A stretch of 36,324 nt of DNA from Candidatus Methanofilum arcanum (GTDB lineage: Archaea; Halobacteriota; Methanomicrobia; Methanomicrobiales; Methanospirillaceae): the NCBI GenBank assembly GCA_031285085.1, contig JAITWW010000113.1, positions 1 to 36,324 on the forward strand, in the 5' to 3' direction. Below, piece by piece: positions 399 to 7,809 of this stretch. Both the position numbers and the translations under genes were made by a program. Every line of letters starts with the position of its first letter. Positions within the stretch are counted from its first letter, which is position 1. Under the pieces are notes generated by a model. It was not told where the DNA came from, ran no database searches, and saw nothing but the letters and a program-made list of their open reading frames with translations.

Positions 399-599
399 AC
401 GAATAGAATAGGCATTGAAACTATTACGTGATAATTTTAAAAGTAGAAAACAGCTACAAAATTTCTTTTAATAGGTTGCATGTGCTTTCGCTGCGGCGTT
501 CATTATTTTTTTAATATCAGTGTATTATAGAAATTTCATTTTAACATAAAAAGTTAATATATTACAAACACTATAACGAAGTGCGTTTCATATCAGGAC

Positions 600-655
600 T
601 TTACAAAGTCCATACATAAATTTTAAAATAGATATAGAAAGGTAGTTATATTAAA
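600..655 (+). promoter_or_regulatory. Candidate Pho box (four 11-bp-phased hexamers) plus TATA-like element upstream of pstS
   Basis: TTTACA-aagtc-CATACA-taaat-TTTAAA-ataga-TATAGA, then TTATATTAAA (646-655); pattern repeated at 1969-2024. Confidence 0.55.
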
Positions 656-698
656 TGATCTAAAGTAATGCTACACATTTCATGGAGATGTCTACAAG

Positions 699-1499
699 AT
701 GCAAAAATTATTCAGTATCATTACGATCATGGCATTCTCATTATGCCTGATTTCCAGCTGTGCTGGCGACGTCAGTGGTACCGTCTCGACAAGTGGTTCT
801 ACCTCAACGGAAAAAGTCATAGCTTCTCTCATTGAAGCGTTTACCATAGAAAACCCAGATGTAACAATTACATATGATGCGACAGGTTCTGGTGCAGGTA
901 TTACCGCTGTTACCGATGGGATCTCTGATATTGGTCTTTCCAGTAGAAAACTGAGAGATTCAGAAACTGGTCTTGATGCGACCGTTATCGCTCTGGATGG
1001 TATTGCAATTATTGTCAACAACGCCAATATTGTCGAAGACCTTACTATCGAGCAGATTGCTGGACTTTTCACTGGAACATTCACGAACTGGGAGGAGGTT
1101 GGTGGAGAAGACGCTCCTGTAGCGATCATCGGTCGTGAAGGAGGCTCTGGAACCAGAGATGGTTTTGAAAGCATTGTTGGTGTAGCAGAAGACTGTGTGT
1201 ACGATCAGGAGCTCACATCGACTGGAGCAGTCATCGCTGCAGTAGCTTCCAATAAATATGCCATCGGGTATGCTTCTCTGTCCGCTGTTAGCACCGATAC
1301 AAAGACTCTGACAGTTGAAGGTGTGGCATGTGCAGAAGAAACCGTACTTGACGGAACATACGCAATTCAGCGTCCCTTTATCATGGTAACACACAGTGGT
1401 GAGAAACTTTCAGATGCTACCAGTGCCTTTATTGAGTTTGCACTGAGCCCAGATGTTGCTGAAATTATCCTGAATGCAGGGGCAATACAGCCACGATAA
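699..1499 (+). CDS. pstS: Phosphate ABC transporter substrate-binding protein PstS (lipoprotein-like)
   Basis: Signal peptide with lipobox-like LISSC; STSGSTSTEKVIASLIEAF, TYDATGSGAGI, GREGGSGTRDGFE motifs; followed by pstCAB-phoU. Confidence 0.93.
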   Translation: MQKLFSIITIMAFSLCLISSCAGDVSGTVSTSGSTSTEKVIASLIEAFTIENPDVTITYDATGSGAGITAVTDGISDIGLSSRKLRDSETGLDATVIALDGIAIIVNNANIVEDLTIEQIAGLFTGTFTNWEEVGGEDAPVAIIGREGGSGTRDGFESIVGVAEDCVYDQELTSTGAVIAAVASNKYAIGYASLSAVSTDTKTLTVEGVACAEETVLDGTYAIQRPFIMVTHSGEKLSDATSAFIEFALSPDVAEIILNAGAIQPR

Positions 1500-1968
1500 A
1501 AGAGAAAGCACTTCACATTGTCGTAGTGTTAACCTATTTACCATCAAGCAGATCGCAGGGCATGCTTGCAGATCATGCAAGATTCTTTTAAATCACACGG
1601 TTGATGACCACATCAGCTGTACTTTTTTCGCTTTAAGGAGATAAAAGCCATACTGCCTGGAATTCAGGTAGCTGATACCCCAATTCTTTCATATCGCAAT
1701 GAATACCTTAGAGAAAGGTTTGAATGCATCTTTTTCTCCTTCTTATGAAATAACACCTTTACTGCGACTTAGATAACACATTATTCTCATCGTTGCAAAC
1801 GGGCAACTGGTGATGCTGTTATGAATGTACGGTTGAATGTATTGTTGAAACGCACGCAACATTATATTAAAGCAGCTTTTGTCACGAAAAGCCCTCATTT
1901 GGTTCTTTAAAGCGTTTTTTTCTTTCACAATGGCCAGTAGCTTGCAAAAGTGATTTCCATATTAAAAC

Positions 1969-2024
1969 TTTACAAAAAGCATACATAAATCATAAATTTC
2001 ATATAGATCATAATTTATATTAAA
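1969..2024 (+). promoter_or_regulatory. Second candidate Pho box plus TATA-like element
   Basis: TTTACA-aaaag-CATACA-taaat-CATAAA-tttca-TATAGA (11-bp period), then TTTATATTAAA (2014-2024); parallels 600-655. Confidence 0.55.
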
Positions 2025-2064
2025 AAGAATAACAAAATGCTATGTATTTCATGGAGATGTTTAG

Positions 2065-2172
2065 ATGATGAAAAGAACACTCAGTCTCATTATGGTCATG
2101 TTACTTTCATTGTGTTTGGTTGTAAGCTGTTTCAGTGATGTCTGTGGCACCGTTTCAACAAGCGGTTTTTGA
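2065..2172 (+). pseudogene. Truncated pstS paralogue (35 codons plus stop), remnant or leader peptide upstream of pstC
   Basis: MMKRTLSLIMVMLLSLCLVVSCFSDVCGTVSTSGF* aligns with the PstS N-terminus MQKLFSIITIMAFSLCLISSCAGDVSGTVSTSGS; shared upstream tttcatggagatgt. Confidence 0.75.
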
Positions 2173-2200
2173 TCTTGTATAGCTATATTAAGGTGCTACC

Positions 2201-3070
2201 ATGAAAATGAAAGAAGCGGTAGAAAAGATAATGAGTGGTTTCTTTTTTCTTTGCGGCGCAACGACAATTATAGCAGTTTCAGCTATATCTATATATATGG
2301 TTATAAGTGGAATTCCTGCTATAATCGAGATCGGAGTGAAAGAATTCCTGTTGGGAGAGGTCTGGAAAAGCACAGCAGCTGAGCCAAAATTTGGGATACT
2401 TCCCTTCATCCTCACCTCTGTGTTTGGCACATTTGGTGCAATACTCCTTGGTGTGCCAATTGGACTGATGACAGCAGTATTTTTGTCAAAACTCGCAAAT
2501 GAAAAAATAGCAGCAAGTTTTCGTCCAACTGTTGAACTTTTGGCAGGTATTCCTTCTGTGGTATATGGTCTCGTTGGTATGATTGTCTTAGTTCCCGTAA
2601 TAATGAATACCTTTGGCTTGAAAAATGGAACATGTCTATTGGCAGCAATTTTAGTACTTGCAATTATGATCCTTCCAAGCATCATCAGTGTAAGTGAAAC
2701 AGCACTTAATGCCGTACCAAAGGAATACGAAGAAGCAAGCTATGCACTTGGAGCTACAAAGATGGAGACTATTTTTAAAGTGAGCATTCCTTCTGCCAAG
2801 AGTGGAATTGTCGCTGGAATAGTTCTTGGAATAGGTCGTGCCATTGGAGAGGCAATGGCGGTTATGATGGTGGCAGGTAATGTGGCAAATATGCCTGAGC
2901 TTTTTAAAAGTGTTACATTTCTGACTACCGCAATAACAAAAGAGATGGCTTATGCTTCTGGGTTGCAGCGAGAGGCGTTATTTAGTATCGCGCTTGTTTT
3001 GTTTATCTTTATTATGGTAATTAACGGTATTTTGAACGTTTTATTGAAAAAAGGAAGCGGATCAAAGTGA
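2201..3070 (+). CDS. pstC: Phosphate ABC transporter permease PstC
   Basis: Six-TM permease; ELLAGIPSVVYGLVG and IGRAIGEAMAVMMVAGN motifs; GTGA overlap with pstA. Confidence 0.93.
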   Translation: MKMKEAVEKIMSGFFFLCGATTIIAVSAISIYMVISGIPAIIEIGVKEFLLGEVWKSTAAEPKFGILPFILTSVFGTFGAILLGVPIGLMTAVFLSKLANEKIAASFRPTVELLAGIPSVVYGLVGMIVLVPVIMNTFGLKNGTCLLAAILVLAIMILPSIISVSETALNAVPKEYEEASYALGATKMETIFKVSIPSAKSGIVAGIVLGIGRAIGEAMAVMMVAGNVANMPELFKSVTFLTTAITKEMAYASGLQREALFSIALVLFIFIMVINGILNVLLKKGSGSK

Positions 3071-3924
3071 CACATAAGCTCTCAACAAAGCGGCGTATGT
3101 ATGGTCTTGCTTTAGAATCTGCTATTTATCTCTGTGCTGGAATTACTGCTGCGTTACTTATTATATTAATTTTATATATTTTTTATAGGGGACTTGGAAC
3201 AATCACATGGGAACTTCTCACCACACAGCGCAGTGCACTGAGAGGCACTATTGGTATTCTTCCAAACATCTTATTTACACTCTATATTATTTTTACGTCC
3301 ATGATTATCGTCCTTCCTATTGGTATTGGAGCTGCAGTGTACTTAACTGAGTACACCACCAGTAAAAAATTAACACATGCTATTGAGTTTGCTATCGAGA
3401 CTCTCGCTGGTATTCCCTCTATCATATATGGGCTTGCCGGATATCTCATATTCTGTCTGAAGATGGGGATAGGAACGAGTATTCTCGCAGGAGCACTTAC
3501 CTTAGCCCTTATCATTTTGCCAACCATTGTAAGGACTACACAGGAAGCGCTTAAAACTGTCCCTGATTCATATCGTGAGGCATCAGTTGCTCTTGGTTCG
3601 ACGAAATGGCATACGATCAAAACAGTCATTTTTCCATCCAGTTTGGATGGCGTTGTCAGTGGCTCTATTCTTGCTGTTGGACGTATTGTCGGTGAGAGTG
3701 CAGCTTTGCTTTTCACGGCTGGAACAGCATATTCCTTAGTGTCCAACTACTTTGATGCTCTGGGGACTAGTGGTGGGACATTGAGTGTTGCTTTGTATGT
3801 CTATGTCTCTGAACACGGAAGATTTGATGTGGGATTTGCCATTGCCTCAATTTTAATGATTATTGTACTTATCATAAATGTTAGTGCAAGAATGATAAAG
3901 AAATATCTTGTATATGACAGGTGA
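3067..3924 (+). CDS. pstA: Phosphate ABC transporter permease PstA
   Basis: ETLAGIPSIIYGLAGY, ALGSTKWHTIKTVIFPSSLDGVVSGSILAVGRIVGESAALLFTAGTA; GTG start overlapping pstC stop. Confidence 0.93.
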   Translation: MTHKLSTKRRMYGLALESAIYLCAGITAALLIILILYIFYRGLGTITWELLTTQRSALRGTIGILPNILFTLYIIFTSMIIVLPIGIGAAVYLTEYTTSKKLTHAIEFAIETLAGIPSIIYGLAGYLIFCLKMGIGTSILAGALTLALIILPTIVRTTQEALKTVPDSYREASVALGSTKWHTIKTVIFPSSLDGVVSGSILAVGRIVGESAALLFTAGTAYSLVSNYFDALGTSGGTLSVALYVYVSEHGRFDVGFAIASILMIIVLIINVSARMIKKYLVYDR

Positions 3925-3927
3925 ACG

Positions 3928-4680
3928 ATGGATATAATTAATGTAAAGAATTTAAATTTATATTACAGCAACTTTCATGCTTTAAAGGATGTAAACATAG
4001 ATATTCCTGAAAAGGAAATTACTGCCCTGATTGGCCCCTCTGGGTGTGGGAAAAGTACGTTTCTCAAAACACTCAACCGCATGAATGATCTCATACAGGG
4101 CGTGAAAATAACTGGTGAGGTGAAGTTTCGTGATGAGGACATCTTTGCAAAGGATATAGATGTGACTCGCCTTCGCAAAAATATCGGTATGGTCTTCCAA
4201 AAACCAAATCCTTTTCCCATGAGCATATATGACAATGTTGCCTATGGACCAAAGCTTCATGGAACTTTGAAGCGAAATGAGTTAAATGACCTGGTTGAGC
4301 GCTCTTTGCGTGGGGCTGCCTTGTGGGATGAAGTGAAAGACCGTTTGAAAAAAAGTGCCCTTAGCCTTTCTGGTGGACAGCAGCAACGGCTTTGCATTGC
4401 CAGGGCTCTCGCTGTAGAACCAGATGTGCTTCTGATGGATGAGCCCACTTCAGCGCTGGACCCAGCAAGTACGATGAAGATTGAAGAACTGATGAGTGTT
4501 TTGAAAAAAAACTATACTGTTGTCATTGTCACCCATAATATGCAACAAGCGGCTCGTATATCTGATAACACAGCTTTCTTCCTTGTTGGTGAGTTGATAG
4601 AAGTGGGACGTACTGACAAAGTATTCTCCATGCCACAAGATAAGCGAACAGAGGACTACATAACTGGAAGGTTTGGTTAA
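3928..4680 (+). CDS. pstB: Phosphate ABC transporter ATP-binding protein PstB
   Basis: Walker [10 protein letters not shown], signature [16 protein letters not shown], Walker [14 protein letters not shown]. Confidence 0.96.
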
Positions 4681-4699: not shown

Positions 4700-5362
4700 A
4701 TGAATAATAGACAAGTTTTTGATTTTGAACTCAAGGAACTCTCTTCCGAATTAATACGAATGGGAGTTGCTGCGACAGAAGCTGTCGGCAAAGCAATGAT
4801 TGCGCTTGAAAAAAACGACAAAGACCTTGCTTGGACGGTTATTTTAGGAGACAAAGTAATTGATGAGATGGAGCGAAGCATAGAGAACCGTTGCTTTCGG
4901 CTTTTGCTTACACAACAACCTGTAGCACGCGATCTTCGAAAAATAAATGTAGCTATCAAAATGATTACTGATATTGAACGTATTGGAGATGCAGCCGTTG
5001 ATATTTCGAGGCTTTCCTTAGATAGAGGAGAATGTATATTTCCAGAGATTCAAAAGTCCGTGTTTGAAATGGCAGATGTAGCTCGATCCATGGTGGATGC
5101 AAGTATTGAAGCATATGTGCATGAAGATGAGGAAGCTGCAAAACAGACGATGGAAAAAGATGCCATTGTAGATATGTATTTTATTGATATCCGTAATGCA
5201 TTTGGTCAGCGCCTCAGTAGAAATACAGATGACATCATCGAAATTATGGATTATCTCATGATCATTAAATATTTGGAGCGTGTAGGAGATCATGCGGTTA
5301 ATATATGTGAGTGGGTGGAATTTTACAAAACTGGCATTCATCAAAAAGAGCGGATTTTGTAA
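4700..5362 (+). CDS. phoU: Phosphate signalling regulator PhoU
   Basis: Two PhoU repeats (ITDIERIGDAAVDIS, IKYLERVGDHAVNICEW), 220 aa, directly after pstB. Confidence 0.93.
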   Translation: MNNRQVFDFELKELSSELIRMGVAATEAVGKAMIALEKNDKDLAWTVILGDKVIDEMERSIENRCFRLLLTQQPVARDLRKINVAIKMITDIERIGDAAVDISRLSLDRGECIFPEIQKSVFEMADVARSMVDASIEAYVHEDEEAAKQTMEKDAIVDMYFIDIRNAFGQRLSRNTDDIIEIMDYLMIIKYLERVGDHAVNICEWVEFYKTGIHQKERIL

Positions 5363-5386: not shown

Positions 5387-6091
5387 ATGAACGAGAAGAT
5401 CATCATTGTTGAAGATGATGAAAGTATCCGCCGCTTAGTGGAGGTAACTCTGAAAAGTCATGGCTATAATCCATTAGGCTTTGATAATGCAGAAGATGCT
5501 TTAGCAGAAATGAGCAAAGAAGCTCCTGCTATTGCGATTTTTGATATTATGATGGCTGGGGTGGATGGTTTGGAAGCGGTAAGGCGCATACGTCAAATCG
5601 AACGCTTGAGGGCAGTTCCAATTATTATGCTTACAGCAAAGGATAGAGAATTAGACAAGATAATTGGACTGGATTCAGGTGCTGATGACTATATGACAAA
5701 ACCATTTTCTGTTCTTGAGCTGTGTGCAAGAGTTCGTGCCCAGCTTCGTCGTACTGCAAGTGACGAAAAATGTGTGGCTGTTATCTATGAAAGTAATGAC
5801 CTGTGCATAAATATTGCTGCACATGAGGTCACCGTAGCCGATGTTCCTGTGCTTTTGACATTGAAAGAGTTTGAACTTCTTAAACTCCTAATAGAAAATC
5901 GAAACAGGGCACTTTCACGAATGGAGATTTTAGCTCAGGTTTGGGGTGAGGATTACTGTGGTGAAACGAGAACGCTTGATATCCATATTGGAACCCTTCG
6001 TCAAAAACTTGGAGATACCGCCGAAAATAGTAGGTACATAAAAACAATACGGGGAGTAGGATACCGTTTCATCGGAGGTGATAAGGAGTGA
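5387..6091 (+). CDS. OmpR/PhoB-family response regulator (REC plus winged-helix DNA-binding domain)
   Basis: Receiver EDDESIRR...FDIMM...MLTAKD...DYMTKPF; C-terminal LTLKEFELLKLL...RTLDIHIGTLRQKLGD..IKTIRGVGYRF. RBS-like ggagg precedes ATG 5387. Confidence 0.92.
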   Translation: MNEKIIIVEDDESIRRLVEVTLKSHGYNPLGFDNAEDALAEMSKEAPAIAIFDIMMAGVDGLEAVRRIRQIERLRAVPIIMLTAKDRELDKIIGLDSGADDYMTKPFSVLELCARVRAQLRRTASDEKCVAVIYESNDLCINIAAHEVTVADVPVLLTLKEFELLKLLIENRNRALSRMEILAQVWGEDYCGETRTLDIHIGTLRQKLGDTAENSRYIKTIRGVGYRFIGGDKE

Positions 6092-7809
6092 AGAATATCG
6101 TGCTGCGTGGGTTTGTTCTTATCCTTACTGTAGCCCTTATTATGTCTGGGCTATTGAGCGCTGCTATATTTAGTGGAGAAGAAACAAAGCTTCAAAAAGA
6201 AGAGTTAACCCGTATTGCTACTATCATTTCTCGTCAATTTGACCCAATGCAGGATCACGATGCGCAAGCAGATGCAATCGCGACCGTTCTTCACAGGGTT
6301 CGTGTGACGATTATTGATAAAAATGGTACTGTGACTGGGGATTCTGCTGTTGATTATTCTACCATGGAAAATCACGGAAATCGTGCTGAGATCATGGATG
6401 CAAAGGCAACTGGCCGCTCTGTCAGTGTTCGTCAAAGTGATACCATAGGAACAAGGCTCATGTATGCTGCAATCAAAACCCCTGATGGTTCGTATATTCG
6501 ACTTGCTAAGGAATACAATGATATACTTGGAAATTTGTTTTCTTTTCTACCTGCGATTATTCCTGCTGCTTTGATCTCGCTTTTTGTCTCCGTTTTGCTA
6601 GCCAATAATTTTTCACGTCGCGTGACTCAACACATTACAACCATGAATGACAGTCTTTCCAGGGTTAAAGATGGCAATACTATGTTGAATCCGGATGACT
6701 ATCCTTATGACGAACTAAAGGACATGGTCACAAAAATTAATGCACTTGCTTTGGACATTAGCATGCACATCGAAAAACTGCAAGGTGAGAAAGACAAAAT
6801 TGCTTTCATTATGGATAATATGAAAGAGGGATTTATTCTCCTTGACAATCAACAAACGATATTACTTATTAATGACAGTGCTTGTAAGTATCTGGATTGT
6901 AAAAAAACTGTTTCTGGGGAACATATTACACATTGCACACGTAATTATCAGCTTTTACAGGCAGCAGACGATGCAATGAAATGCGGTGAAAACCGCTCTA
7001 TGGACATGAAACTTGATGGCCAGGTGATAGAGACTGCATTCACCTATGTTAACCCCAGGCAAGGAATGGATGATACAGGGCTTATTATCACGATGACGGA
7101 TGTGACAGAAAGACGAAACGCTGTTCAAATGCGGCGTGATTTTTTTTCAAATGCAAGTCATGAATTAAAAACACCAATCACGTCTATAAAGGGAGGAGCG
7201 GAACTGCTTTGCTCAGGTATCCCTCTAGATACAGAACAACGTTCAGAGCTTTTGACAAGGATTGAATTTGAATCAGAGAAGATGTGTACGCTCATAAATG
7301 ACATCATTATGATCAGCCGTATCGAAAGTGGAGAGATTATGGCCGACAGGGAAGATGTCGATTTTGAACAGGTCGTACAGGAATGCTGTGCTGAAGTTCT
7401 TCCTTTGATTGAACAAAATAATGTAATGTTAAATATGGAGCTCGAACCTGCTGTTCTGTTTGCCAACCGCAAAAATTTGCACGAACTTGCCTCAAATCTT
7501 CTGGTAAATGCGATTAAATACAATAAATTTGGTGGCAGTGTAGATGTTTTCTTGAAATCTTATGCAAATGAGGTCATTTTCACAGTGAGAAACGATGGGG
7601 AACCTATACCAATTGGGTATCAAAATCGCGTATTTGAGCGATTTTTCCGTGTAGACAAAGGAAGAAGCAAAAAAGTTGGTGGTACTGGGCTTGGACTTTC
7701 CATTGTAAAACATGTCGTAGATAGCATGAAAGGCACTATCCTTCTTGAAAGTAATGAAAAAGATGGAACAACATTCATCGTTCGTTTACCAAGGAATGAC
7801 CAGATATAA
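6088..7809 (+). CDS. PhoR-like sensor histidine kinase (TM, HAMP, PAS, HisKA, HATPase)
   Basis: SNASHELKTPITSIKGGAELL, NLLVNAIKYNKFGG, GGTGLGLSIVKHVV; GTGA overlap with response regulator. Confidence 0.93.
   Translation: MKNIVLRGFVLILTVALIMSGLLSAAIFSGEETKLQKEELTRIATIISRQFDPMQDHDAQADAIATVLHRVRVTIIDKNGTVTGDSAVDYSTMENHGNRAEIMDAKATGRSVSVRQSDTIGTRLMYAAIKTPDGSYIRLAKEYNDILGNLFSFLPAIIPAALISLFVSVLLANNFSRRVTQHITTMNDSLSRVKDGNTMLNPDDYPYDELKDMVTKINALALDISMHIEKLQGEKDKIAFIMDNMKEGFILLDNQQTILLINDSACKYLDCKKTVSGEHITHCTRNYQLLQAADDAMKCGENRSMDMKLDGQVIETAFTYVNPRQGMDDTGLIITMTDVTERRNAVQMRRDFFSNASHELKTPITSIKGGAELLCSGIPLDTEQRSELLTRIEFESEKMCTLINDIIMISRIESGEIMADREDVDFEQVVQECCAEVLPLIEQNNVMLNMELEPAVLFANRKNLHELASNLLVNAIKYNKFGGSVDVFLKSYANEVIFTVRNDGEPIPIGYQNRVFERFFRVDKGRSKKVGGTGLGLSIVKHVVDSMKGTILLESNEKDGTTFIVRLPRNDQI

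Follow-up and report, generated by a model that had tools for sequence, protein, structure and literature searches.

Duplicated Pho-box-like arrays beside TATA-like elements in a clostridial-type phosphate operon of a methanogenic archaeon

A pst-pho operon at a contig end

The window (the whole 36,324-nucleotide stretch that was analysed) carries at one end an operon in the order pstS-pstCAB-phoU-phoB-phoR, whose proteins are encoded between positions 699 and 7809 (Table 1). The operon has two promoter regions, P1 in front of pstS and P2 behind it. Two terminator-like hairpins 3' of pstS would separate this gene from the remaining operon, and P2 is well placed to serve pstCAB-phoU-phoB-phoR, since the truncated pstS copy that follows it ends about 30 bp before pstC. 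A scan of genome contigs with PstS returned distant relatives only. A second PBP_like_2 match, on contig 64, was considered as a second pst system and rejected, because it sits in a tungstate-type ABC operon.

Table 1. Positions of the operon genes and of the promoter features in the window
Feature	Position	Strand	Remarks
P1 Pho-box-like array, pstS promoter (CATATC-TTTACA-CATACA-TTTAAA-TATAGA)	589..638	+	11-bp period; top clostridial-matrix match in window
P1 TATA-like element (GTTATATTAAA)	645..655	+	TATATT at 647; 10/11 identical between copies
pstS Shine-Dalgarno block (CATGGAGATGT)	681..691	+	11/11 identical between copies
pstS, phosphate-binding lipoprotein	699..1499	+	PF12849, TIGR02136 (TIGR02136 just below cut-off)
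Two terminator-like hairpins with T-runs, 3' of pstS	1565..1630	+	5 in region versus 1.3 expected (shuffles)
Paralogous copy of 579-799 (promoter, leader, signal peptide)	1948-2168	+	ungapped alignment; 72% identity in own-genome DNA search
P2 Pho-box-like array (CATATT-TTTACA-CATACA-CATAAA-TATAGA)	1958..2007	+	11-bp period; clostridial-matrix match
P2 TATA-like element (TTTATATTAAA)	2014..2024	+	between-copy comparison
pstC	2201..3070	+	TIGR02138; clusters with Clostridia
pstA	3067..3924	+	TIGR00974
pstB	3928..4680	+	TIGR00972
phoU	4700..5362	+	TIGR02135
phoB-type response regulator (REC + Trans_reg_C)	5387..6091	+	genome's only Trans_reg_C protein
PhoB residues 188 and 202 (Y/F to E, R/K to G)	5948-5995		60 clostridial relatives compared
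phoR/pnpS-type histidine kinase	6088..7809	+	kinase domains intact

The operon was present in a single assembly, which is fragmented (154 contigs, 85% complete), and its location at the contig end means that only one flank is anchored. The other genome of the genus that was examined has a native-type pst instead. These circumstances would fit a bacterial operon joined onto an archaeal contig during metagenome assembly, an artefact that we consider very improbable. Ribosomal protein S6e, Alba and a G1PDH-like protein are encoded further along the same contig, which is therefore archaeal, and the PhoB protein is at most about 56% identical to that of any bacterial genome searched. The codon usage of the operon deviates slightly from that of the host (distance 3.0; 1.9 for native sets, with a 95% limit of 2.5), yet all 14 clostridial loci compared are farther away (3.8-12.6), and the promoters are altered from the clostridial form.

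Pho-box-like arrays and their duplication

The sequence-only reading had described four hexamers spaced 11 bp apart in each promoter region, and this description was exact. TTTACA, CATACA, TTTAAA and TATAGA start at 600, 611, 622 and 633 in P1 (600-638), and TTTACA, CATACA, CATAAA and TATAGA start at 1969, 1980, 1991 and 2002 in P2 (1969-2007). The arrays very likely hold a fifth hexamer on the 5' side, CATATC at 589 and CATATT at 1958, and the best register of a matrix built from clostridial promoters places the first hexamer at these same positions. Pho boxes bound by bacterial PhoB/PhoP are 11-bp direct repeats (PMC4415409), and both arrays consist of direct hexamer repeats with the 11-bp period that marks Pho regulon promoters of the Firmicutes type. 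Self-similarity peaked at period 11 in both segments (24/36, versus 8-16 at the other periods from 7 to 15). When each promoter region (~140 bp) was shuffled locally with its dinucleotides preserved, 0.6-0.8% of the shuffles matched the observed self-similarity with the period fixed at 11, and 3-7% did so with the period free between 9 and 13. Judged on shuffle statistics alone the phasing is suggestive; it becomes convincing because a matrix built from clostridial promoters alone ranks the arrays at the top of the window.

The two segments do share one architecture, as had been noted, and they belong to a single duplication; the earlier reading had missed that the second copy is a duplicated and truncated 5' end of pstS. 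Regions 579-799 and 1948-2168 aligned without gaps through the promoter, the leader and ~33 initial pstS codons, and they were the sole pair found by a DNA search of the genome against itself. Since these regions are paralogous copies, the two promoters are not independent instances. The second copy is a truncated pstS with an open frame of 34 codons (MKRTLSLIMVMLLSLCLVVSCFSDVCGTVSTSGF), ending in a TGA stop at about 2168-2172, ~30 bp 5' of pstC. This truncated gene (window 2068-2176) still has a Shine-Dalgarno sequence and a signal peptide, ends in the lipobox-like LVVSC, and may yet yield a peptide of 34 residues. At its end, directly 5' of pstC, lies a T-run hairpin (2149-2176), a possible attenuator.

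From its sequence, the duplicated pair is usable as a natural footprint of the conserved promoter parts. Between the copies, 27 of the 30 bases were identical in the hexamers at 589, 600, 611, 622 and 633, 10/11 in the TATA-like element and 11/11 in the Shine-Dalgarno block, compared with 70/101 (69%) in the coding part. The remaining noncoding bases were identical at 38 of 68 positions (hexamers versus these, Fisher p=0.001), which confirms the earlier impression that the flanks had diverged more than the repeats. When the four hexamers first described were set against their own three spacers, the counts were 22/24 and 9/15 (p=0.04). If the duplication is older than the transfer, this conservation would stem partly from selection in the bacterial donor.

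Clostridial origin of the operon, its operator and its regulator

The PhoB tree grouped the window protein with 17 clostridial proteins in a clade of 18 rows (100/98). The PstC tree grouped the window PstC with three clostridial proteins (L142, L143 and L096) in a clade of four rows (100/99), apart from native archaeal PstC. PhoB of E. coli and PhoP of B. subtilis were included in the PhoB comparison as outgroups and for alignment orientation only. Clostridial PhoB homologues reached 54-56% identity, and no bacterial genome searched was closer than about 56% in PhoB; the gene order pstS-C-A-B-phoU-phoB-phoR is common to many of the clostridial relatives. Close PhoB homologues are nearly absent from archaea: in 232 genomes of the order, matches at E<=1e-20 were confined to four others (30-37% identity), and a 394-genome sample of the phylum contributed one more (37% identity). 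The best reading of these data is that the operon was acquired laterally from Clostridia together with its regulator and operator. On contig C2 of genome G480 (L060), a gene for an NptA-type sodium/phosphate cotransporter has TTTACA repeats upstream and is followed by a close PhoB-PhoR pair, and these PhoB relatives seem to control another phosphate importer.

The pst and phoB promoters of the clostridial clade contain TTTACA/TTAACA arrays in 11-bp phase, with the pattern TTTACA-n5-TTTACA or TTAACA-n5-(TTAACC, TATACA, AATACA, GATACT)-n5-(ATGATA, CTGATA); the L132 promoter, for example, reads TTTACA-TTTAT-TTAACA-TACAT-AATACA-TAAAT-CTGATA-GA. Scanned over both strands of the window, a matrix from clostridial sites only, with one training site counted twice, scored highest at 589 (10.5 bits), 600 (7.6) and 1958 (7.3), in that order, with shuffle P values of 0.002 and 0.013. 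When about 214 kb of this genome (428,116 positions) were scored with the doubled-site matrix, just 2 positions reached 10.5 bits. After removal of the duplicate, the 15-site matrix gave 11.5, 8.7 and 8.3 bits at 589, 600 and 1958. Over 631 kb (1.26 million positions) it ranked the first promoter 4th and the second 17th, with other positions scoring equally. The arrays match the Pho boxes of the regulator's closest relatives but score below nearly all of them (8-12 bits, versus 17-33 for the clostridial sites under leave-one-out scoring, except a single site at 5), and the archaeal copies are clearly weaker. A 39-bp matrix from all clostridial promoters was rejected as too generic, ranking the window sites only 2nd and 8th-9th. 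In the whole genome, TTTACAn5YATACATAA with 0 or 1 mismatch occurred in these two promoters only. With two mismatches there were 18 places against 14 in the reversed control, and because these counts are about equal no wider regulon was visible in the 85% assembled.

The pst promoters of related archaea were compared, a check proposed earlier: in all 19 regions scored, the maximum of the clostridial matrix in native promoters was -0.9 or lower. Since native pst promoters lack the motif, the Pho box arrived with the operon. The regions upstream of native Methanomicrobiales pstS (L243-L262) mostly have a TCTATGTCGAAAA-like (or TTTATGGCGAAAA) string with TATATA after it, and in many of them CTCTATAGAG-like strings stand further upstream; this shared string is possibly the element of native phosphate control in these archaea, or the BRE/TATA of these promoters.

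These comparisons also bear on whether an archaeal regulator, for instance an EarA-like one, binds the hexamers, or whether they arose by chance in AT-rich DNA. Each copy holds one TACATA (613-618 and 1982-1987), which equals the EarA consensus (PMC10665913), and the phase statistics are weak by themselves. TACATA, however, also occurs within clostridial arrays (L132, L135-L137 and L141), the pattern is missing from native archaeal pst promoters, and EarA is known for archaellum genes, so that we find this explanation hardly credible.

The regulator is a PhoB-type protein by its domains, as had been proposed from the sequence, with REC and a Trans_reg_C winged helix in the manner of OmpR/PhoB response regulators and with the phospho-acceptor Asp. 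It scored 221 bits against the TIGR02154 PhoB equivalog, whose cut-off is 296, and is thus PhoB-type and no certified member of that equivalog. Its recognition helix (RTLDIHI-TLRQKLG) agrees with the clade except for R to G at 202, a position occupied by R or K in 57 of the 60 bacterial rows. Residue 188, at which each of the 60 bacterial rows carries Y, F, I, S or C, is E and falls in the loop through which E. coli PhoB contacts sigma; residue 202 falls in the PhoB helix that touches DNA. E188 and G202 could represent adaptation or could represent decay and lost function.

TATA-like elements and the proposed mode of control

Each array is followed by TTATATTAAA, starting at 646 and 2015, 7-8 bp beyond the last hexamer, and the start codons (ATG at 699 for P1; at 2065 or 2068 for P2) lie as first reported. 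TATATT stands 58 bp from the array start in both copies and matches TATAAT at 5 of 6 bases, and the -10 hexamers of the clostridial promoters stand at 59-61 bp. Because it lies within 1-3 bp of the clostridial -10 position, the TATA-like element may derive from conversion of the donor -10. It is located 52-53 nt before the start codon, and TATA-like strings of the genome are enriched at 46-60 nt in crude sets of 122-125 regions. A de novo motif search of about 122 upstream regions yielded no clean BRE/TATA consensus, a sigma-70 scan was uninformative (8 sites versus 5.2 +/- 2.3 expected), and Rfam had no RNA family within 1-2300.

The arrays are probably Pho boxes imported with the clostridial operon, with PhoB activating two duplicated TBP/TFB promoters. 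A complete clostridial pstSCAB-phoU-phoB-phoR operon would have entered the methanogen together with its Pho boxes. The pstS promoter and 5' end would then have been duplicated and most of the second pstS lost, splitting the operon into two units under the same control, with P1 driving pstS and P2 driving pstCAB-phoU-phoBR. The P2 unit includes the gene of the regulator itself, and since phoB-phoR would be under P2 control, the system would reinforce itself by positive feedback. From the computed features we infer PhoB binding, activation, TBP/TFB contact and a phosphate response: when phosphate is scarce, PhoB would be phosphorylated by PhoR and would occupy the 11-bp repeats head-to-tail, adjoining the BRE/TATA region on its 5' side, from where it would stimulate transcription by aiding TBP or TFB binding at a weak BRE/TATA. 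By analogy, PhoB would most likely aid TBP or TFB as Ptr2 and EarA do. More tentatively, a PhoB-type activator may have come to act through TBP/TFB with the operator kept, the -10 turned into a TATA element and the polymerase-contact loop changed (Y/F to E at 188). The sequence-only reading of an OmpR-type activator beside an archaeal promoter is supported in part, by the match of the repeats to those of the relatives, by the PhoB-type regulator in the operon and by the array adjoining the TATA-like element; the clostridial origin had escaped it.

The same loci might instead be relics, that is, leftover bacterial Pho promoters with decaying repeats, the archaeon transcribing the operon from TATA-like DNA without PhoB. 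The sites are weak beside clostridial ones, PhoB departs at two otherwise conserved positions, and TATATT stands at the donor -10 distance. Set against this, the hexamers differ less than spacers and flanks do between two copies whose coding parts agree at just 69%, an argument that lapses if the duplication is older than the transfer. Both phoB and phoR also have intact frames with their catalytic residues, even though PhoB is the genome's only Trans_reg_C protein. We regard the relic reading as unlikely on balance. Quite improbable, in our estimate, is a role of PhoB as a repressor or insulator that binds against the BRE and blocks TFB/TBP, inverting the sign of control relative to bacteria. 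The array stops only 7-8 bp short of the TATA-like element and abuts or overlaps the BRE, as such a role would suggest. The bacterial Pst/PhoU/PhoR set is nevertheless wired for induction when phosphate is low. Archaeal activators likewise bind immediately 5' of the BRE (PMC5512572).

Activation by PhoB would bear on how a sigma-dependent bacterial activator could be taken over by a TBP/TFB organism that has no sigma factor. Regulator, kinase, operator and two sister promoters lie in one 8-kb segment, and the donor form of the promoter is available for comparison. The case could reveal whether a bacterial gene activator works with the archaeal transcription machinery.

Like clostridial Pho systems, the operon has TTTACA-like hexamers in exact 11-bp phase upstream of pst, encodes PhoB-PhoR within the pst operon and has an equal gene order. 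It differs in its archaeal host without sigma factors, in its more degenerate sites, in the TATA-like element that replaces the -10 and in the duplicated promoter. The methanogen activators EarA and Ptr2 recognise repeated hexamers that lie immediately 5' of the BRE (PMC5512572), and these short sites beside BRE/TATA offer a model of TFB or TBP recruitment by which PhoB might work; EarA and Ptr2 are not response regulators, belong to other protein families and lack 11-bp phased Pho hexamers. LtrR, FilR1 and Bat-type archaeal regulators resemble the system in bringing two-component output to archaeal promoters (PMC5847659), but none of them has the REC-Trans_reg_C (OmpR/PhoB) architecture, and a survey of two-component systems in archaea published in 2018 came across no typical OmpR/PhoB regulators (PMC5847659). 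Native Methanomicrobiales pst operons share the transporter function, whereas their PstC is 39-48% identical and lies in another part of the tree, and their promoters have another conserved string (TCTATGTCGAAAA) in place of a Pho-box array.
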